A DNA stretch of 64,000 nt from Flavipsychrobacter sp. GTDB taxonomy: Bacteria > Bacteroidota > Bacteroidia > Chitinophagales > Chitinophagaceae. The stretch's first letter is position 1, and the number at the start of each line of letters is the position of its first letter. Positions 1 to 15,111 of the stretch are shown here, piece after piece. The position numbers and the translations under genes were made by a program. The stretch is taken from the NCBI GenBank assembly GCA_016786665.1, contig JAEUVZ010000073.1, forward strand, positions 1 to 64,000, given 5' to 3'. Below the pieces are notes generated by a model. It ran no database searches and was not told the DNA's origin. It worked only from the letters and a program-made list of their open reading frames with translations.

Positions 1-373
1 ACCCTGCACTTTGGCACAGCCGTAAAGCGGAAGCAATGCCGATGAAATCTACAATGTTGATTGATGACTCCTCATATACCGGTGATGTATGAATTGCTAC
101 TCCTGCGGCTACATCCCATATCTGAAACCTACTATCCCGTGTGTCGCGGCAGGATACGCTGTTAATGAAGAGTGCATTGGCCGTAGGCCTTGGAGTAGTA
201 ATTAATAAACTTCTCTGACGGACGTGTTTGTCCCACTCAGCATAAGCTTCGCGCTTTGAATCATAGCTCTTATAGACTGCGTCATCACCATTGACCAACC
301 GCCTTACTTCCGACCAGGGTTTATTAAACACACCGGTTTTTCTTCCGCGAAATATTACATATGTCTTACTCAT
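1..373 (-). CDS. RNase H family protein with N-terminal viroplasmin (hybrid-binding) domain, 3' end cut by window
   Basis: The open frame runs from an ATG at 371-373 to the left edge without a stop (124 codons seen). Residues 1-45 have the viroplasmin/RNase HI hybrid-binding pattern (YVIFRGRKTGVFNKPWSEV, then KSYDSKREAYAEW), which binds RNA/DNA hybrids. An RNase H fold begins near residue 65. Aligned by eye to the complete neighbour at 1403-1849, the first catalytic Asp is Asn here (FINSV against VVDSC), and the Glu position is Asp (INIVDF against NNAGEF). Catalysis may therefore be lost or altered. The start overlaps the stop of the upstream gene by 8 nt, so translational coupling is likely. 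Whether the rest of the active site is present cannot be seen. Confidence 0.75.
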   Translation of the reverse strand, partial: MSKTYVIFRGRKTGVFNKPWSEVRRLVNGDDAVYKSYDSKREAYAEWDKHVRQRSLLITTPRPTANALFINSVSCRDTRDSRFQIWDVAAGVAIHTSPVYEESSINIVDFIGIASALRLCQSAG

Positions 374-1274
374 GAACTTCTGGTTTAAATGATATTTTTT
401 CAAGCTCAAACTGCTCTTTTATCTTAGGTGCGTAGATGTTGTCAATACACCATTTAAGGGTCCGGATGTCTCTTTCGCCCTTATGTTTTTCGAGAATATT
501 GTCAAACATTTCATCCCATAAGTCCTTTTTATAGGTACTATCTATTGAGGATATCATATGAAATAAGTCTCTGCCATGCTCGTCCCCAATAGAAGCACAT
601 TCATAACAGCGGTCAATCAGCTCCTCCTTGCTATCGATCATATTTATACCATACTTCAGCAGGATAGCAACAGCCGGATAGATACCGTGATATTCCAGTG
701 CGCATGTAGTGTCATATTCTACCCAGTGCATATCATCATCGAAATTATCGGCCTCATTCTCTTCAATGTAAGGTCTCATAGGAAACAAATCGTCGATTGG
801 AATGAAGGTGTTAACGCCGAAGACACAGTGTTCTTTCGGGCAAGGGTAATACTCCTGCCACCTTGTTTCTATTGCGTTCTCAACCTTGACCTTAAAGACC
901 TGTTGAAGATATTTCCGGTAACGCCACCATTTGTTCTTGAATATTGATCTGGTCTCTGAATGCCCAAGGAAAGCATAGATTAGGATCTTTTTGCCACCGT
1001 CATAATGTATCCATCCTATATTCAGAAAGGTTGCAAGCAGCAAGAGCATTTCGTTTCTCTTGTATGTATCAGCAAGGATGGGGTTGTCCGCAATACTGAC
1101 GGGGAAGACACCCATCGCTGTACAGTGCAAGTCACCTTTATCTTCCGACTTGTTTAATCCTAGATAGAGATTGTTAATGCTATCATGAATGCCTCGTAAT
1201 GCTGCACGTTGAACCAGATTATGAGTTTCGAATTCTGGTTGAAGAGTTGATATCTTCTCATTCTTAGTTTGCAT
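366..1274 (-). CDS. Conserved protein of element, copy 2 of a paralogous pair (PriCT-like C-terminus)
   Basis: This 302-residue protein is of no family I can name with certainty. From about residue 85 to the end it is clearly homologous to the product of 1836-2789. Shared landmarks are W-Q-[ED]-[YF]-YPC, a PY motif, LLKYGI, YECAS-GD--GR--FH and a WC--NIYA segment. The part around YECASIGDEHGRDLFHMIS followed by a spaced tyrosine resembles the primase C-terminal (PriCT-2-like) modules of Bacteroidota primase-type proteins; this is inference. Its stop overlaps the start of the viroplasmin-RNase H gene, repeating the arrangement of the other copy. A replication or hybrid-processing role with RNase H is plausible but unproven. 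Confidence 0.7.
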   Translation of the reverse strand: MQTKNEKISTLQPEFETHNLVQRAALRGIHDSINNLYLGLNKSEDKGDLHCTAMGVFPVSIADNPILADTYKRNEMLLLLATFLNIGWIHYDGGKKILIYAFLGHSETRSIFKNKWWRYRKYLQQVFKVKVENAIETRWQEYYPCPKEHCVFGVNTFIPIDDLFPMRPYIEENEADNFDDDMHWVEYDTTCALEYHGIYPAVAILLKYGINMIDSKEELIDRCYECASIGDEHGRDLFHMISSIDSTYKKDLWDEMFDNILEKHKGERDIRTLKWCIDNIYAPKIKEQFELEKISFKPEVHE

Positions 1275-1353
1275 ACTATTTGTCTTTAAGTGTTACCAAT
1301 ATTTTAGTTATTATCGTTTGCGCCCTTGCGAGGCATCTCCTTGCCCTTAAGTT

Positions 1354-1398
1354 GTCTACGCCCGTCCCACATGCCGTCGGCATCAGACGGGCGTAGAC
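1354..1398. repeat. Perfect 13-bp inverted repeat with inner palindrome between the two cassettes
   Basis: Arms GTCTACGCCCGTC (1354-1366) and GACGGGCGTAGAC (1386-1398) are fully complementary. Inside them ATGCCG-t-CGGCAT (1371-1383) forms a second stem. No T-run follows on either strand, so it is not a standard intrinsic terminator. It fills the gap between the RNase H gene end and the next cassette start. Confidence 0.8.
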
Positions 1399-1402
1399 GA
1401 AC

Positions 1403-1849
1403 CTATTTTCTATCAAAGTCAGCAGGGATTTCACCCCATAGATGTGTCAGCCATTTTTCGACTTTATTATGGTCTGGATTTGCCCTGAGCCACTGTTCTG
1501 CTTCAATGATCTGAGTTAAGATCTTCATGTTGGTTGTTGCCCCCGACTTTGTCTTTCTTTTTCTCACCCAAGCCATGGCGGTTGTACTGTCAGTATAGAC
1601 TATGGCATCCCGCCCGGTCTTTTTACAATACTTCAGCGCCAAAACCACGACCAGGAATTCACCTGCATTATTGGTTGCTCCAAAAATGGGCTTTGAAGTG
1701 TACAGGGGCACTCCCGTCGCATAATCCATAATCTGATATTGCATTATCCCTGTTGCACTGCTATAGCAGGAATCAACCACAAGGGAGTTAAGCTGGGGAG
1801 CAGAGCTGTTCTGCTCCCCAGTATTGTTATAGTTATTATTGCTCATCAT
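1403..1849 (-). CDS. RNase H-like protein lacking the viroplasmin domain
   Basis: The likely start is ATG 1847-1849 (or 1844-1846), giving 148 or 147 residues; the upstream extension is unlikely because it lies inside the preceding gene. All four RNase H acidic positions are visible: VVDSC, NNAGEF, YTDSTTAMAW and the C-terminal GEIPADFDRK, the last being the typical ending of Bacteroidota viroplasmin-type RNase H. The hybrid-binding N-terminal domain is absent. The start overlaps the stop of the 1836-2789 gene, as in the neighbouring cassette. It probably cleaves RNA in RNA/DNA hybrids. The second cassette shows the opposite state: hybrid-binding domain present, catalytic Asp changed. Confidence 0.75.
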   Translation of the reverse strand: MMSNNNYNNTGEQNSSAPQLNSLVVDSCYSSATGIMQYQIMDYATGVPLYTSKPIFGATNNAGEFLVVVLALKYCKKTGRDAIVYTDSTTAMAWVRKRKTKSGATTNMKILTQIIEAEQWLRANPDHNKVEKWLTHLWGEIPADFDRK

Positions 1850-2789
1850 CGATATTGTTAGCGTTAAATGAATCACGTTCCAGTTTTGCGGCTGCCTCAA
1901 CTTGTGACGCATAGATGTTCTCGTAGCACCACATGAAGGTTTTGATGTCGCGTTTTCCCTGATGGTCGTTTAGTATACCTGTGAAAATGTCATCGTAAGC
2001 TTCCCGGTCATAGCCTGGGTTCAGGTATGCCAAGCTGTGAAATGCTATCCGTCCTAAGCGGTCACCAAGTGAAGCACACTCATAGGCGCGGTTTCTAAGT
2101 TCGGAAGCGGTAGCGGTCGTATCGATCCCATATTTCATCAGGAGGCTCACGTACTTGACTACTTGAGAGTACTCTTCTGCATAGACAGTTTCATGCGCGG
2201 CCCACAATAGATCTTCCTCAAGGCTATCTTGTTCCCCGCTTTTCAGATAAGGAGCCCTTGGCAGGACATCTTTCAAGTCCTTGATGGGTTTGTAGCCATA
2301 CCGAGCTTCGTCAGGACAGCACGGATAGAAGTCTTGCCACTCGGGTTCAAGAACATCATCTACAACGACGTCCAATACTTCTTGGAAATACGCGACATAT
2401 TTGCGCCAGTCCTTTCTGAATTCAATCCAACTATCGTGATGCCCGATGTTGAAGTAGACGTTAAACCGATCTTCGCGGAACCTATTATTTGCTATAACGT
2501 TGTCAAAAGCAATAATCTTCCTTTCCAACTTATCCTTCGCGCTTTGGCTCTTGAGCTTCGGGTTCTGTTTGAACAGTATACTTAACTCACCGATGCCAGT
2601 ATCATACCAGTTTTTGCCTATGCGGATGTAGCCTGCTGAAAGTTGAGCAATACTCCCGTTTTCCCAATCATACCAACGGTCATTCAACTCCAGGTACTTA
2701 ATCCGCGGATCAGTGGTTTGGGTAAATTCAAATGGAACTACTCCAGTGGTCGGTATGCAACCAACCTTGACTTTTTCTTTGAAATGCAT
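1836..2789 (-). CDS. Conserved protein of element, copy 1 of a paralogous pair (PriCT-like C-terminus)
   Basis: This 317-residue protein is a paralogue of 366-1274; identity is obvious from the FNIG segment (about residue 112) to the C-terminus. Landmarks are EWQDFYPCCP, LPRAPYL, LLMKYGI, RAYECASLGDRLGRIAFH and RDIKTFMWCYENIYA. The last third looks like a PriCT-2-type helical module, known from primase/replication proteins of Bacteroidota elements; this is a resemblance only. The N-terminal 100 residues are not similar between the copies. The gene ends inside the start of the RNase H-like gene (overlap 11-14 nt). The element context (Rep-like and excisionase-like genes on the same strand) supports a DNA-metabolism role. 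Confidence 0.7.
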   Translation of the reverse strand: MHFKEKVKVGCIPTTGVVPFEFTQTTDPRIKYLELNDRWYDWENGSIAQLSAGYIRIGKNWYDTGIGELSILFKQNPKLKSQSAKDKLERKIIAFDNVIANNRFREDRFNVYFNIGHHDSWIEFRKDWRKYVAYFQEVLDVVVDDVLEPEWQDFYPCCPDEARYGYKPIKDLKDVLPRAPYLKSGEQDSLEEDLLWAAHETVYAEEYSQVVKYVSLLMKYGIDTTATASELRNRAYECASLGDRLGRIAFHSLAYLNPGYDREAYDDIFTGILNDHQGKRDIKTFMWCYENIYASQVEAAAKLERDSFNANNIDDEQ

Positions 2790-2815
2790 ATATATTTTGA
2801 TTTTAATGTGACTTG

Positions 2816-3220
2816 TTAAAGCATCGGAATACTTGCAATGAGGTCTCTCTCATTGTCGATAATCCTCTGATACTCTTTCTTGATCCTCAGGGCTTCTTCC
2901 GTTAGGTTCCCTTGGCGAAACCATTTCAGGTAGTGCAGCAGCGCTTTTTCGAAGCATACGAACGTCCTGCAGTACTTCTCACCAATCATGCTAATGGCAT
3001 ATTCGAACTGCGCTTCGTCGAACAAGAAGCGTGGGAAATGTTTGTGTGTTACGACCAGGAAGGTATACTTGGGTGTACCGTCTTGGTGGCGACGAAGCTT
3101 CTCCGCTCGTTCGGCGTCGGTGGTTGTTTGGCCAAAGGCTGCTTCCATGGCAGTCGCAAGGGGGCTACCTGCTTCGAGGTGCTCGTTACCCCAGTAGTTG
3201 CTTAAATCTGTTTCTTGCAT
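2816..3220 (-). CDS. Hypothetical element protein
   Basis: This is a 134-residue soluble protein, unrecognised. I chose the ATG at 3218-3220 because the in-frame extension to an ATG at 3257-3259 translates an A-rich stretch that looks like leader; the longer form (147 residues) remains possible. The sequence is hydrophilic with a central aromatic-rich part (PKYTFLVVTHKHFPRFLF) and a helical C-terminus. It lies 26 nt upstream of the duplicated cassette and downstream of a palindrome at 3285-3303 that could be its operator. No Cys pairs or nucleotide-binding motifs are visible. Confidence 0.6.
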   Translation of the reverse strand: MQETDLSNYWGNEHLEAGSPLATAMEAAFGQTTTDAERAEKLRRHQDGTPKYTFLVVTHKHFPRFLFDEAQFEYAISMIGEKYCRTFVCFEKALLHYLKWFRQGNLTEEALRIKKEYQRIIDNERDLIASIPML

Positions 3221-3259
3221 AAGCTTGTTTTTTTTGGTTATAAAAGTTTGTTTGTACAT

Positions 3260-3502
3260 AATGAATATTGTCAGTTCTGGTTGTGGTAACTGGGTACGTT
3301 ACCAAACCTGTCTGACTGTTATACTGTAATGGGTGTCCATGTGTCTTTGTGTTTTTTTTGACCTGTCTTAGGATATAAATATGGTTTTCACAGTGATGGG
3401 TTGCTGGGTATGTTACTATAAGGGGGTTATACCTTCTTACCGGTTATGCCCCCTAAGAGGGGGACAGAATCCCACTTTATTAAATAGGGGAAAACGTCCC
3501 GT
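3260..3502. other. Noncoding region with repeats: candidate origin or operator region
   Basis: About 240 bp without a gene separates the Rep-like gene end from the next start. GGTAAC-tgggtac-GTTACC (3285-3303) is a 19-bp palindrome. An 18-bp near copy of its left part lies at 3399-3416 (15 of 18 match). Near 3421-3463 the segments AGGGGG, CCCCCT and GGGGG can form two mutually exclusive hairpins. This layout suits Rep binding or autoregulation; function is inferred from position only. Confidence 0.45.
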
Positions 3503-4453
3503 CTAACCAAGCAGCTCATCAACCTCCTTTTTGATTAAACCTGCGATTTCCGAATGCAGGTCACAGTCACTATACTTTTGGGTTAGCTTTATGAAAACAG
3601 CACGTAGGCGATAATAAATTTTCCGGTTGCCAGACTGTTTTCGAACCATATTCATCCAGTAGAGGGGGTTCTTGCCGCTGATCATAAGTTCCCTATGCTC
3701 TTCAGCAGTTGCTTTGTTCGGTAATTGCGGGTCGCATAGAAGAACCTTTGACCAAGCCCTTATCAATAGATTTGACACCTCTCCTAGTTTATTTTTATCA
3801 AGTAGGTCAGCTAAAGTTCTAATGCAATACGGGGGCTGCTTAAGCCTACGAAGCCGAGAAAAGCGTAGCTCGAAACGGAGTTTGTTTTCCGTTAGGCCAT
3901 ACTGTGGACCTTTATTATAACACTTTACGGAATACTCGCCGAGCTTAGCTACTTTACCCAATGACCTGCCCTTCTTGCCCGGTTGATATTTTATAAACTC
4001 TTTCGTAGAATAGGTAACAAGCCAGTTTTCAACTATATCCTGTACTTCAATGCTAGGCTTTACATTTACGCCGTATTCAAAACTTAGTAGGGTAGCTATT
4101 GCGGGATTAATGTCCAGTGCTTTGCAGATACGTGAAAGTTCCGTATGATAATGTTCGAAGTAAAGGCGTTCATAGTTTCTGCCATTAAATGCATTTTTGT
4201 GTATGCTGCCTTCCACCCATAGTCTATACGTCGAATGCGTGTATTTTCCGTCTTTGAGATGTTGAACTTCAAATACAATAAGTTTAAAGCCTTCGAACTC
4301 TCCATCATACATAATAGTATTCGAATTCTTGCGACGCTTATTTTTAATTTCCCCTGTCCGTCTGTCGACCCTCACGTCCAGACGGATATTTGTCGTCTGC
4401 TCCCATTCCTTTAAGCAGAAGAGGGCAACAATAAACCTTAAATGATCTGTCAT
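3503..4453 (-). CDS. Putative replication initiator (Rep-like) protein
   Basis: The protein has 316 residues. The central part has LSFEYGVNV and then YSVKCYNKGPQYGL followed by LRFELRFSRLRRLK. This pattern, a tyrosine/lysine motif followed by an RxE-type strand, resembles rolling-circle or filamentous-phage-like Rep proteins (Rep_trans/gpII type), in which a Tyr cuts the origin. I cannot confirm the catalytic residue. It lies 4 nt after an excisionase-type HTH gene, a pairing common in small Bacteroidota integrative elements. A repeat-rich noncoding stretch follows its 3' end. An alternative is another DNA-binding element protein of unknown function. Confidence 0.45.
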   Translation of the reverse strand: MTDHLRFIVALFCLKEWEQTTNIRLDVRVDRRTGEIKNKRRKNSNTIMYDGEFEGFKLIVFEVQHLKDGKYTHSTYRLWVEGSIHKNAFNGRNYERLYFEHYHTELSRICKALDINPAIATLLSFEYGVNVKPSIEVQDIVENWLVTYSTKEFIKYQPGKKGRSLGKVAKLGEYSVKCYNKGPQYGLTENKLRFELRFSRLRRLKQPPYCIRTLADLLDKNKLGEVSNLLIRAWSKVLLCDPQLPNKATAEEHRELMISGKNPLYWMNMVRKQSGNRKIYYRLRAVFIKLTQKYSDCDLHSEIAGLIKKEVDELLG

Positions 4454-4457
4454 ATAG

Positions 4458-4910
4458 CTATAGCTGGGTTATTTGGGTTAGATATTTTTCTATGTCTGCT
4501 TTTTGAAATAGTCGTTTCCCTCCAATTTTTACTGTTGGTAGCGCCCCGGTGTTTATAATTTTGTAAAGCGCCCCTTTACCGATTCGAAGTAATGACTGGA
4601 CCTCCTTTACAGTTAGAAACTCTGTCGGGCTAGCTTTCTGATCTCTAACATTCCTGATGTCCTCAACGATTCTTTTGCGGTGCTTCTCCATTAGCAATTC
4701 CCATTGCTCTATTAGTCCGTCAAGTTTTAGCGTTAAATGCAGCTGTATTTCTTCGGGGGTAAGTATGTTGTCGGTATTTCCACACCGACGATTTTCGGAA
4801 TCGGGTAATCTATTCTTCGACAAATGACCCCTGATTATCTTGTTTTTCATGCGCCGAAAATCCCAAGACGTGTTGGCTAAGGCACTGAATATCTCTTGGA
4901 ATTGAGCCAT
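4458..4910 (-). CDS. Excisionase-type helix-turn-helix protein
   Basis: The protein has 150 residues. The last 55 form a MerR/excisionase-type winged HTH (DNA-binding protein, excisionase family): FLTVKEVQSLLRIGKGALYK, a turn, then LPTVKIGGKRLFQKADIEKYL, the typical wing and closing helix. The first 90 residues are charged and helical, like many Bacteroidota mobilisation/excision regulators. It is transcribed first and followed after 4 nt by the Rep-like gene, so the two probably form one operon controlling replication or excision of the element. No integrase gene lies in the window. Confidence 0.8.
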   Translation of the reverse strand: MAQFQEIFSALANTSWDFRRMKNKIIRGHLSKNRLPDSENRRCGNTDNILTPEEIQLHLTLKLDGLIEQWELLMEKHRKRIVEDIRNVRDQKASPTEFLTVKEVQSLLRIGKGALYKIINTGALPTVKIGGKRLFQKADIEKYLTQITQL

Positions 4911-4964
4911 AGTAAAGGCTCTTAATTATAAGTGCGTGTTATTTTGGGTAATGGGGGCATAAAA

Positions 4965-4990
4965 AATCCAGCTACTTTAGTAGCTGGATT
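4965..4990 (-). terminator. Intrinsic terminator of the 5009-5974 gene
   Basis: AATCCAGCTA (4965-4974) pairs with TAGCTGGATT (4981-4990) around a 6-nt loop. Reading the minus strand, the stem is followed by TTTTTTA, directly after the gene ending at 5009. Confidence 0.85.
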
Positions 4991-5008
4991 AAGCAGGAAT
5001 GTTGCCGA

Positions 5009-5974
5009 TTAACTATATCGTTTACTTCGGATGTTTTGACTGATAAAGGTCTCAACGAGAGCATTGACCTTTGAATCACTAATAAATATTTTTAATCCAG
5101 TGAGGGTCCGGTTATCACAAATATCAGTTACAATTTTTGAAAGGCTGAAATAGATTGAACTTTTATCTTTCGCCTTTGGCGGGGAATGAAATGTTTCTTT
5201 AACAACAATTATTGAATCTTTTGTAATTGAATTTTGTAGCTGGCTAATTTCATCAGCGTAAATATAGCTTTTGAAAGTTTCGCCGACGTCCGTGGTTGCA
5301 AAGTCAGCTATTCCTATGTCTGGTTCAATTAAAACCAATACTGGCCTCTTATACTTTTTGAGAATCTTCGCTACACTATCAAAATAATCACTTCTAGTAT
5401 TATCTTCAAAATATGTTATGCCTTTTAATTCTACATTATTGCGTCCTGGACAGTTGAATACAATTTTTACATCAATACCCATTCGTTTGAAGAAAGTTGC
5501 TACTTCTGGAATCATTTTTTCCTGCTCTTCTACTGCTGGAATTAGCTTTTTTAAAATTTCCGCCCCGGGTGGGCAGGGGGTATAAAACGTACGTTCATTT
5601 TCGTCAGTTTTAATTTCTTCTAAGTTAGACTTGATGGTTCGTAGCCACTCATTGCGAAGCCTAGGTTGCCATTTATATTTGTGTGTAAGGTCTCTGTATA
5701 GAATTTTGGCATTTTTGAAACGGTCTCGTCTCACTTTCTTTGCTACAGTGCTTAAGTTTTTTAAATATAAAAGTGAGCGTTCCATAACCTCGACAAGGGC
5801 GTTATTCCCAACGCCATATCGGTAAACGTCATTTTTCCCAAAGTAAATTTGCTTCTCTCTCGGCTCGGTAAGCATTGTGACGTGAAAAAGTGGAAGTTCC
5901 ATTTTTTCGCACAGCTGGTATACGGTATCATATATCATTAGTGAAGTAGTATCACCATGTGTCTCCCAATTCAT
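5009..5974 (-). CDS. Orphan protein of unknown function in element
   Basis: The protein has 321 residues with no family recognised. It is hydrophilic, Lys-rich in the middle (many K/R between residues 75 and 115), with a beta-alpha-like C-terminal half containing PVLVLIEPDIGIADF and SIIVVKETFHS. It has no signal peptide or membrane segment. It is a single gene between two terminators and therefore probably its own unit. The base composition is more AT-rich than the core genes further right, consistent with acquired DNA. A defence or anti-defence cargo gene is possible from its position, but no motif supports it. Confidence 0.65.
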   Translation of the reverse strand: MNWETHGDTTSLMIYDTVYQLCEKMELPLFHVTMLTEPREKQIYFGKNDVYRYGVGNNALVEVMERSLLYLKNLSTVAKKVRRDRFKNAKILYRDLTHKYKWQPRLRNEWLRTIKSNLEEIKTDENERTFYTPCPPGAEILKKLIPAVEEQEKMIPEVATFFKRMGIDVKIVFNCPGRNNVELKGITYFEDNTRSDYFDSVAKILKKYKRPVLVLIEPDIGIADFATTDVGETFKSYIYADEISQLQNSITKDSIIVVKETFHSPPKAKDKSSIYFSLSKIVTDICDNRTLTGLKIFISDSKVNALVETFISQNIRSKRYS

Positions 5975-6115: not shown

Positions 6116-6880
6116 TTATTTCATTTTCCTGTTCGCCTTTTCCATTGCCTGAGCCAACTTAGCCTGTATCGTCATCATCCGTGATAATTGCTCGGCACTA
6201 AGTTCTCCCTTTGCGTTTCCCAATTTCTGTCCAAGTTCAACCGAACTTTGATATAGACTTGCATAATCACCCATTGCCCCAGCAACATTGTCATTGCTCA
6301 TGTCATTGATTAATTCTACATAATCATCGGTGTGCTTTTCATACGCATCAAGTAGTTCGTCAAAGTTATTCTCGGAACCGGCGGCAGTGGATACTGCTGC
6401 ATCACTTGTGGCCGGACTTTCACTTGCTATATAAGGTTCTTTAACTACCCCGGAAAGTGAGAACTTTTTGGCTTTCTCATTCATCTCCTGACTGTAGCCA
6501 TAAGCATCGAATGATAGCACTTCTTCGCCAGTACCTCTTTTCAGTAGGTCTTTAAGCTTATTCTTAGAATCTAAGTTTAAGCTGAACTGGGTGATGCCTG
6601 AAATCGGCGAGCCACCCTCCGTTAAAAGTGATCCATTTAAATCGAACTCTTTGTCACTTGGGTAGGCTTTCAGAGCTTTTATTTTTACTGACAGTTTCCC
6701 GATATAGTGCCCGTTTATTTCATAGTCGTTTTCTACAATCTGGAGATAATCAGAAAGGTCTCCCCCAACTGATGTTGACTCGGGCTTTAGAGATGCAGTT
6801 TCCGGATGCTTTTTACTTCCGCCACAAGATGATAATAAAGTTGATAATACGATGACTATTGAGAGAATTGAGTTTTTCAT
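6116..6880 (-). CDS. Lipoprotein of unknown function
   Basis: The protein has 254 residues. It has a signal peptide with lipobox LLSSC-GG (Cys near residue 19), so it should be lipid-anchored after signal peptidase II. Residues 30-130 look like beta-rich DUF-type sequence. After a Ser/Ala/Thr linker (about 150-170) a helical domain follows (LDAYEKHTDDYVELINDM, then LYQSSVELGQKLGNA and a Met/Gln-rich end). This resembles helical C-terminal domains of Bacteroidota DUF6591-like lipoproteins; I am not certain of the family. It lies downstream of a promoter at 7252-7282 and of the long hairpin at 7065-7177, which may form its leader RNA. Confidence 0.75.
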   Translation of the reverse strand: MKNSILSIVIVLSTLLSSCGGSKKHPETASLKPESTSVGGDLSDYLQIVENDYEINGHYIGKLSVKIKALKAYPSDKEFDLNGSLLTEGGSPISGITQFSLNLDSKNKLKDLLKRGTGEEVLSFDAYGYSQEMNEKAKKFSLSGVVKEPYIASESPATSDAAVSTAAGSENNFDELLDAYEKHTDDYVELINDMSNDNVAGAMGDYASLYQSSVELGQKLGNAKGELSAEQLSRMMTIQAKLAQAMEKANRKMK

Positions 6881-7064
6881 TCGTGAGTTATTAATGTTAG
6901 AAAATATTAGTAGGTCAGTTCACGAATGAATATGGCGGTGGTCGTATCGGTGGATAGATTATTTTCTGAAGAAGAGAATGCAACATTCATTATGATGTTG
7001 CCAGAGGTTCCGATGGCGGAAAGGTGTGTAAAATAAGAGGGGCGTGAACCTCGGCCTACAACTA

Positions 7065-7177
7065 GTCTTGAAGGAACCGCCAAGCCCCGACACCTAGAAT
7101 GTAGTAAGGCCACGCCCTTTATGGGCGCGGAGACTTACTAATCCCGGTGTCTTTAATTATTGGCGGTTTTTCAAGAC
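7065..7177 (-). ncRNA. Long imperfect hairpin: candidate structured RNA or leader element
   Basis: Five nested stems share one axis: 7065-7072 with 7170-7177, 7076-7083 with 7160-7167, 7089-7094 with 7146-7151, 7102-7108 with 7134-7140, and 7110-7117 with 7123-7130 (one A/C mismatch). About 36 base pairs are separated by small internal loops and capped by a 5-nt loop. A Bacteroidota promoter points through it from 7252-7282 and the lipoprotein gene starts 185 nt further on. It may be a 5' leader, a stand-alone RNA, or a single-strand DNA site of the element. I recognise no Rfam class. Confidence 0.6.
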
Positions 7178-7251
7178 GGGAACGTAAACTACGCGATCTC
7201 TTTATGAGTCAATTATTTCTTAAAGTCGATATTTTATGATTTGTTTGAATA

Positions 7252-7282
7252 CAAAGATACGAAGCCTTGTTCGCCCGTACAA
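7252..7282 (-). promoter_or_regulatory. Bacteroidota sigma-A-type promoter toward the hairpin and lipoprotein gene
   Basis: On the minus strand TTG (7282-7280), 20 nt, then TATCTTTG (7259-7252) matches TTTG/TAnnTTTG. The predicted start, near 7247, lies about 70 nt before the long hairpin and about 365 nt before the lipoprotein ATG. Confidence 0.65.
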
Positions 7283-7347
7283 TATATGGATAGGTGAGAC
7301 TTTTTCCGCTTCAGTTGCTTCTCTACGGAAAACCACCAAAGACAAAA

Positions 7348-7395: not shown

Positions 7396-7469
7396 TGGTC
7401 CCACTAGGACTTGAACCTAGGACCACCTGATTATGAGTCAGGTGCTCTAACCAACTGAGCTATAGGACC
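7396..7469 (-). tRNA. tRNA with CAU anticodon (tRNA-Ile2 favoured over elongator Met)
   Basis: A full 74-nt cloverleaf is present: acceptor GGTCCTA/TGGGACC with discriminator A, D arm, anticodon stem CCTGA/TCAGG around CTCATAA, and T arm with TTCAAGT. CCA is not encoded. CAU can be elongator Met or, after lysidine modification by TilS, Ile. The pairs C4-G69 and C5-G68 are TilS-favoured identity pairs in known bacterial tRNA-Ile2, so Ile2 is my preference. It is not an initiator tRNA, since 1-72 is a paired G-C. Confidence 0.92.
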
Positions 7470-14184: not shown

Positions 14185-14219
14185 GGTAATCATCCTTTCC
14201 AGGATGGTTACCTTTTTTT
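14185..14219 (+). terminator. Strong intrinsic terminator after the T9SS gene
   Basis: GGTAATCATCCT (14185-14196) pairs with AGGATGGTTACC (14201-14212), one wobble, followed by TTTTTTT. Confidence 0.9.
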
Positions 14220-14285
14220 ATGCAATATCTGGTTGTTCCACCCGCTCTCTCAGAGATTCTCCTACTGGCAGGGAGAAGAGGCCCC

Positions 14286-14650
14286 CCACCGTCCTTGCGA
14301 GTACAGCGAAGCAACCTCACCCCACGTTCTTGCCCACCTACCACAAAAAAACAGAAAGCCCCCTTCAGGGGGTTGGGGGCCGACCCCACACCAATCACCC
14401 CCCACATTGTCACTGCGAGGAGGCACGACGAAGCAGTCCAACCAGCTTCATTCAAACAAAACACAAGCAAATAACCCACCGTCCTTGCGAGCACAGCGAA
14501 GCAACCTCACCCCACGTTCTTGCCCAGCAGCCCAGCCACCACACAAAAAAAACCACAAGAAGCCCCCTTTAGGGGGTTGGGGGCCGCCCCCACACCAATC
14601 ACCCCCACGTTGTCACTGCGAGGAGGCACGACGAAGCAGCCTAACCAGCT
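14286..14650. repeat. Two tandem copies of a composite intergenic repeat
   Basis: Two units of about 170-190 bp (start near 14289 and 14479) share the same order: CCGTCCTTGCGAG[TC]ACAGCGAAGC, then AGCCCCCTT[CT]AGGGGGTTGGGGGCCG, then TGTCACTGCGAGGAGGCACG with ACGAAGCAG. Each part is a short palindromic, REP-like module. Open frames across it are repeat artefacts. The region is intergenic between convergent genes. Confidence 0.75.
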
Positions 14651-14652
14651 AC

Positions 14653-15111
14653 CTATATCTGCTGCTCATAACGCCCGCTTATGGCGGTAAATACAATTTT
14701 ATAATAGATGGACTGTTTATCTCCCGGTGCGTGCGGGCGCGGGCGTTCCGGTTGTGCGTCCGGCGGCAGGGCGGTCTCGCTCACCTTCAGTTCCAGCATT
14801 TCTTCCGAGAAGTATTGCTTTGCGTTCTCTATCTCTGTTTTGTCACTTAGTTCCAGGTACACGCCCCAGGCTATCACGCAGCGCCAGTTAGAGTAGTCGC
14901 GTATTTCGTCTACCTCAAAGCATACATTAGGGTTGGCGCGCATCATGGCTATCTTAAGCCCTTCATACGAGTGGCACAGTATATGGTCGCCCATAAATAC
15001 ATAGCTGATGGGCACCACATAGCTGTTGGTGCCATCGTTGCAGCCCAGCCGGCCTATAATGTTGCGTTCCAGCAGTGCGCCTATTTCTGTTTCCGTAAGT
15101 TCTCCCAGCAT
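14653..15111 (-). CDS. Pyridoxamine 5'-phosphate oxidase-like (FMN-binding split barrel) protein
   Basis: The protein has 152 residues from the ATG at 15109-15111, which gives MLGELTETEIGALLER; the longer frame overlaps the dinB gene. It shows the split-barrel pattern of the Pyridox_ox_2 group: IIGRLGCNDGTNSYVVPISYVF, HILCHSYEGLKIAMMRANP, VCFEVDEI, WRCVIAWGVYLEL. Members bind FMN or F420 and reduce small molecules; the true substrate cannot be read. The last 45 residues (PERPRPHAPGDK) are poorly conserved. It follows dinB by 31 nt on the same strand and may be co-transcribed. Confidence 0.82.
   Translation of the reverse strand: MLGELTETEIGALLERNIIGRLGCNDGTNSYVVPISYVFMGDHILCHSYEGLKIAMMRANPNVCFEVDEIRDYSNWRCVIAWGVYLELSDKTEIENAKQYFSEEMLELKVSETALPPDAQPERPRPHAPGDKQSIYYKIVFTAISGRYEQQI

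Follow-up and report, generated by a model that had tools for sequence, protein, structure and literature searches.

The window analysed here, the first 64,000 nt of a contig of Flavipsychrobacter sp., contains a long hairpin between a minus-strand promoter and a lipoprotein gene. Such a structure could be a leader RNA of the gene, a small RNA in its own right or a folded single-stranded DNA site used by the adjacent element, as had been proposed from the sequence alone. We therefore asked which of these readings is best supported by comparison with related loci.

The hairpin belongs to a larger conserved structure

The hairpin (7065-7177) is real and folds as the sequence-only reading had described. 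The minus-strand fold of 7055-7187 has an energy of -62.1 kcal/mol, compared to -35.3 +/- 3.8 for shuffled sequences (z -7.1), a value reached by none of 200 shuffles. The plus-strand fold of the hairpin gave z -6.3. The proposed size of 113 nt holds for the hairpin and not for the full extent of the structure, which runs from about 7204 to about 6999 and is closed by a stem, P1, with two pseudoknots in addition. The features are collected in Table 1.

Table 1. Positions of the promoter, RNA elements and reading frames in the window
Feature	Position	Strand	Evidence or remark
TTG, -33-like element of Bacteroidota promoter	7280-7282	minus	sequence; 20 nt upstream of -7 box
TATCTTTG, -7 box (TAnnTTTG)	7252-7259	minus	sequence; zone enriched in homologues
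Whole conserved RNA core, ~206 nt	6999-7204	minus	model R2 (207 positions), 182.3 bits, E 4.8e-39
P1 5′ strand (AAGAG...GCGU)	7191-7202	minus	partner 7035-7045; GCGU/ACGC nearly invariant
PK2 5′ strand (UCCCG)	7177-7181	minus	pairs with CGGGA, 7142-7146
P3 5′ side (GUCUUGAA, A-rich internal loop, ACCGCCAA)	7160-7177	minus	fold; covariation
P4 5′ strand (GACACC)	7146-7151	minus	6 pairs, two-sided changes in all
P5 5′ strand (UAGUAAG)	7134-7140	minus	covariation
P6 apical hairpin (CCGCGCCC / GGGCGUGG)	7110-7130	minus	93% of cells paired; G.U 134, A.C 2
P5 3′ strand (CUUACUA)	7102-7108	minus	covariation
P4 3′ strand (GGUGUC)	7089-7094	minus	covariation
P3 3′ side (UUGGCGGU, CC bulge, UUCAAGAC)	7065-7083	minus	fold and covariation
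PK1 5′ strand (GAGGUUC)	7046-7052	minus	pairs with GAACCUC, 7004-7010
P1 3′ strand (ACGC...CUCUU)	7035-7045	minus	partner of 7191-7202
U-rich tract after P1 (CUCUUAUUUUAC)	7028-7039	minus	U-run count across homologues
3′ hairpin GCCA-(UCGGAACCUC)-UGGC, loop forms PK1	7000-7017	minus	GCCA/UGGC, GUCA/UGAC variants
Short uORF MLHSLLQKIIYPPIRPPPYSFVN	6915-6986	minus	starts 12 nt after RNA core; Pro-Pro in close homologues
Lipoprotein gene (DUF6591), downstream gene	6116-6880	minus	

Four true homologues, alignable over ~220 nt and thus beyond the hairpin alone, were found by blastn in 150 genomes of the family. A gapped pattern derived from them and run on 84,980 genomes gave 11 Bacteroidota matches aligning over the full length, including one in Flavipsychrobacter stenotrophus; pattern matches in other phyla were attributed to chance, none being matched by the model. 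About 100 distinct copies were identified with two covariance models, R1 built for the plus strand and R2 (the rod plus PK1) for the minus strand. R1 copies were present in 42 of 299 genomes of the family, with three in the window's own genome, and R2 copies in 41 of 399 genomes of the order, 67 of 395 of the class and 15 of 297 of the phylum, other Bacteroidota classes included; these counts are lower bounds owing to strict filters, and the E-values are rough. Up to six R2 copies occurred per genome, sometimes in tandem. At 27 negative-control loci, the best model match was no better than E 0.24.

Clustered or tandem copies were seen at L183 4780-5960, L184 4787-5225, L187 4151-6700 and L185 5074-6303. 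In the last of these, two consecutive response-regulator genes each carry their own copy. A phage or plasmid element was also considered; distant blastn against phages and plasmids, and two patterns run on viral contigs, both narrow searches, gave no match.

Compensatory changes and wobble pairs point to a minus-strand RNA

Compensatory changes in homologues, whose absence would have counted against the sequence-only reading, are present, with two-sided changes at 49 of 52 modelled base pairs. Standard pairs fill 86.5% of cells among the 100 distinct sequences, compared to 58.8% after shuffling and at most 51.6% after sliding. The covariation score was 0.658 versus 0.194 for shuffles, none of 500 being as good; these values come from an alignment fitted to the model and from shuffles that ignore ancestry, but the margin is very large. 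In P3, all 16 modelled pairs show two-sided changes and 91.3% of cells are paired. Near-invariant residues are located in the internal loops, besides P1 and P6.

The wobble cells are far from neutral with respect to strand: the minus-strand alignment contains 361 G.U and 91 A.C cells, whereas in the plus-strand reading the variable covarying stems give A.C, not G.U. This asymmetry places the RNA on the minus strand, and is explained by an RNA but not by a DNA structure. A plus-strand RNA had first been suggested by conserved G.U-like columns and a 5′ pseudoknot. It was rejected on the A.C cells of its covarying stems, and also on the minus-strand promoter and the aligned gene orientation.

Two pseudoknots are predicted and supported by the alignment. 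PK1 is formed between the strand abutting P1 and the loop of the 3′ hairpin; two-sided changes occur in 7 of 7 pairs, 90.6% of cells are paired, and homologues carry variants such as AGGUAC/GUACCU, GUCUC/GAGAC, AAGUCCC/GGGACUU and GUAAGGG/CCCUUAC. For PK2, the helix length over the family is 6.53 versus 5.35 +/- 0.11 with permuted partners, and covarying pairs such as UCUUG/CAAGA and UUUCU/AGAAA were found. Each pseudoknot lies about 10 s.d. above permuted partners, in controls that leave shared ancestry in. The architecture predicted by comparison is a long coaxial rod P2-P6 closed by stem P1, with PK2 as the internal pseudoknot and PK1 connecting to the 3′ hairpin loop.

The RNA lies between a promoter and a start codon

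The minus-strand promoter is located where it had been reported, and so is the lipoprotein start codon, an ATG at 6880 that lies 185 nt from 7065. Exact TAnnTTTG was found 20-90 nt upstream of the RNA in 51 of 99 homologues, compared to 5.3 expected and 2 in the antisense control. The 42 bp around the -7 box (window 7248-7289) are 95% identical to a segment from a different genus (G227 contig C9:140631-140672), upstream of an RNA copy in that genus and apparently with no adjoining tRNA. They may represent an extended conserved promoter travelling along with the leader.

On the other side of the RNA, the first ORF of at least 90 aa shares the strand of the RNA in 89 of 97 copies and is opposite to it in 8. 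ATG codons peak 10-20 nt past PK1 or the last helix, with 51 in two 5-nt bins versus 2-12 in each bin from 30 to 80 nt, and the main gene starts at most 30 nt away in 31 of 84 cases.

A T-run had been reported as lacking. In fact the RNA strand carries CTCTTATTTTAC (7039-7028) directly after the closing stem, and at least 6 U in the 8 nt directly after the P1 3′ strand were observed in 84 of 93 copies, compared to 11% of control windows. This run and the presence of its own promoter would suit a trans-acting small RNA that stands alone and has its end at the run behind P1; transcription would then reach the downstream gene, a bystander, by read-through. We consider this rather unlikely. PK1, located beyond the U-run and next to the start codon, covaries and would stay unexplained, and both the fixed start-codon spacing and the same-strand gene argue against it.

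The comparative data show a conserved, stranded and doubly pseudoknotted RNA between the promoter and the start codon. Same-strand 5′ location, compensatory changes and an upstream promoter are among the features by which a putative cis-regulatory leader RNA is recognized, and all three were found. Among the three initial readings, a new leader RNA is strongly supported, on the concordant evidence of covariation and strand, of the promoter and of the orientation and start-codon spacing of the gene; the single-stranded DNA site is not, and the small RNA is rather unlikely.

A short ORF with a Pro-Pro motif occupies the start-codon slot in the window's subclass

In the window's subclass, the main gene starts farther off and the slot is occupied by an ORF of 9-37 codons. 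A Pro-Pro uORF was found in 14 of 16 close loci (shuffles: mean 0.2, maximum 2), a signal noticed post hoc and within one subclass, and in none of 62 divergent loci. A short uORF with such stall-prone codons is what a candidate leader-peptide attenuator should carry. Examples of the peptides are MSNKSPPVRM, MHNKAPPVF, MLLFTLKLICPAVRPPP and MSVKSPLIQMVLIPLQSPP; in two cases the start is GTG. The Pro codons vary (CCA CCG, CCC CCT, CCG CCG, CCA CCC, CCC CCA) and the motif is in frame, making a purely RNA element (CCNCC) less likely.

The start-codon slot of some divergent copies holds small membrane peptides of ~33 aa, just downstream of the RNA core (L089 5218, L091 5235, similar in L092), e.g. 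MEELKRPEFPTKRVVIFVIAYIIILAIVLLKMK.

Downstream genes are diverse

Downstream genes encode 65 Pfam families among 82 proteins. The largest group is made of six response regulators; others include four type III restriction-modification DNA methylases, LamG, T9SS-secreted and SHOCT proteins, and many lipoproteins. No common pathway or ligand was found among the 82 genes, which is unusual for a metabolite riboswitch, and this diversity therefore permits no guess at a ligand. Among the first downstream genes, none of the 25 commonest families is a reverse transcriptase, and a retron or other RT-linked ncRNA was rejected.

The diversity would fit a constitutive 5′ UTR module, an RNA stabiliser or translation enhancer acquired by various accessory genes and sensing nothing, as would the presence of RNAs 70-77% identical before unrelated proteins. 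Such a module is nevertheless unlikely in our view: two conserved pseudoknots and near-invariant internal-loop residues exceed a stabiliser's needs, and the Pro-Pro leader peptide implies regulation.

A self-cleaving ribozyme or a mobile-element RNA with no regulatory tie to the gene could account for the double pseudoknots, the gene-independent occurrence, the several and tandem copies per genome and the recombinases or IS transposases near some copies. It is very unlikely, given the same-strand gene and the start-codon spacing, the lack of any Rfam ribozyme match, and the RNA-gene pairs that are stable across species (response regulators, type III methyltransferases). Hardly credible, finally, is the idea that the neighbouring island uses the folded single strand as a DNA site, whether a transfer origin or a hairpin for recombination or replication: the window copy does lie between a tRNA-Met gene (7396-7469) and that apparent island, but the G.U/A.C asymmetry on one strand is an RNA signature, the promoter and ORF geometry speak against it, and copies adjoin unrelated genes in many contexts, many of them away from any tRNA.

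The apparent island is a block of minus-strand ORFs (window 366-5974), mostly devoid of Pfam matches and ending near the tRNA-Met gene; exceptions are the HTH_17/excisionase-like protein encoded at 4458-4910 and, at 1403-1912, an RNase H-like PHROG match. The block resembles a mobile island situated at the end of the contig. Elsewhere in the window, open frames of both strands overlap at 14204-14850 and carry repeated SLRAQRSN / HCEEARRSS motifs; they resemble a family of intergenic repeats more than genes. A related locus (L198 866-900) contains a match to the Rfam DUF805b RNA motif.

Comparison with known RNAs

Rfam 15 at gathering score gave no family over the RNA, the sole match being the neighbouring tRNA. 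Weaker matches, taken up to E 10 or 5, were all implausible. tmRNA was rejected: its model does not match here, and the genome's own tmRNA lies elsewhere (C15:72915-73284).

In some riboswitches, the cobalamin riboswitch for example, a 3′ pseudoknot or kissing hairpin forms close to the start codon. The RNA described here resembles this type in its 5′ leader position, complex conserved fold and tandem copies, and in the pairing of its 3′ hairpin loop with the core next to the start codon, but has neither a match to an Rfam riboswitch model nor a coherent regulon. Second-messenger riboswitches (c-di-GMP-I/II) precede many unrelated genes as one class, with several copies per genome, sometimes in tandem. 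The same is seen here; however, fold and sequence differ and the Rfam c-di-GMP models do not match. Proline-sensitive leader peptides are exemplified by the E. coli mgtL type and by Pro-Pro-stop stalling. As in the window's subclass, their structured leader contains a small uORF in which proline is encoded, whereas here the uORF lies behind a large pseudoknotted RNA, in one subclass only.

Bacteroidota ncRNAs in Rfam and Weinberg 2010 (PMC2864571) include 6S-flavo, Bacteroid-trp, Bacteroidales-1, Bacteroides-1, Flavo-1 and Pedo-repair. Like these, the RNA emerges from comparative genomics of the same phylum, but none of them matches it at gathering threshold. Keywords returned nothing fitting in the main texts of the discovery papers PMC2864571, PMC6429828, PMC8632094, PMC11109978 and PMC8040213. 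The last describes thousands of candidates, e.g. HMP2_4205, a terminator-like one of 132 bp from Bacteroidetes, and a fragment of the RNA may already be among supplementary candidates such as these. As a family the RNA is previously uncatalogued, in that nothing in Rfam 15 covers it.

A probable family of leader RNAs gating translation

Taken together, these results lead us to favour, as the probable explanation, a novel Bacteroidota family of 5′ leader RNAs that regulate in cis by gating translation at the slot beside PK1, sometimes via a leader peptide. The RNA would fold co-transcriptionally, and whether P1 and PK1 are formed would decide 30S initiation at the ORF starting 10-20 nt behind PK1. 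In many members, the ORF in the slot would itself be the regulated gene; in the window's subclass, ribosomes slowing or stalling on the Pro-Pro leader peptide would pass the signal to the lipoprotein gene. The U-run after P1 could add transcription attenuation, though PK1, being made later, cannot serve as its antiterminator; the U-run and the placement of PK1 10-20 nt ahead of a start codon are candidate parts of an expression platform. Candidate triggers include a ligand, a protein, temperature or EF-P/proline status. A pseudoknotted RNA at the beginning of messages for diverse accessory genes, with a Pro-Pro leader peptide behind it in this branch, has the appearance of a novel RNA-based gene switch.

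It is possible, and proposed here only tentatively, that the family is a phylum-wide ligand- or signal-sensing RNA class placing unrelated accessory genes under one signal, one branch acting in series with a Pro-Pro stalling peptide. If so, the genes concerned would include those for secreted proteins, response regulators and restriction-modification. To our knowledge, it is rare to find a bacterial RNA class that is large, widespread and strongly covarying yet absent from Rfam, and we know of few regulatory RNAs in Bacteroidota. About one sixth of the genomes in the broad class sample carry the leader RNA, and the family supplies models, coordinates and testable structures. Through the Pro-Pro uORF, RNA folding would be linked to translation directly and in a way open to testing.
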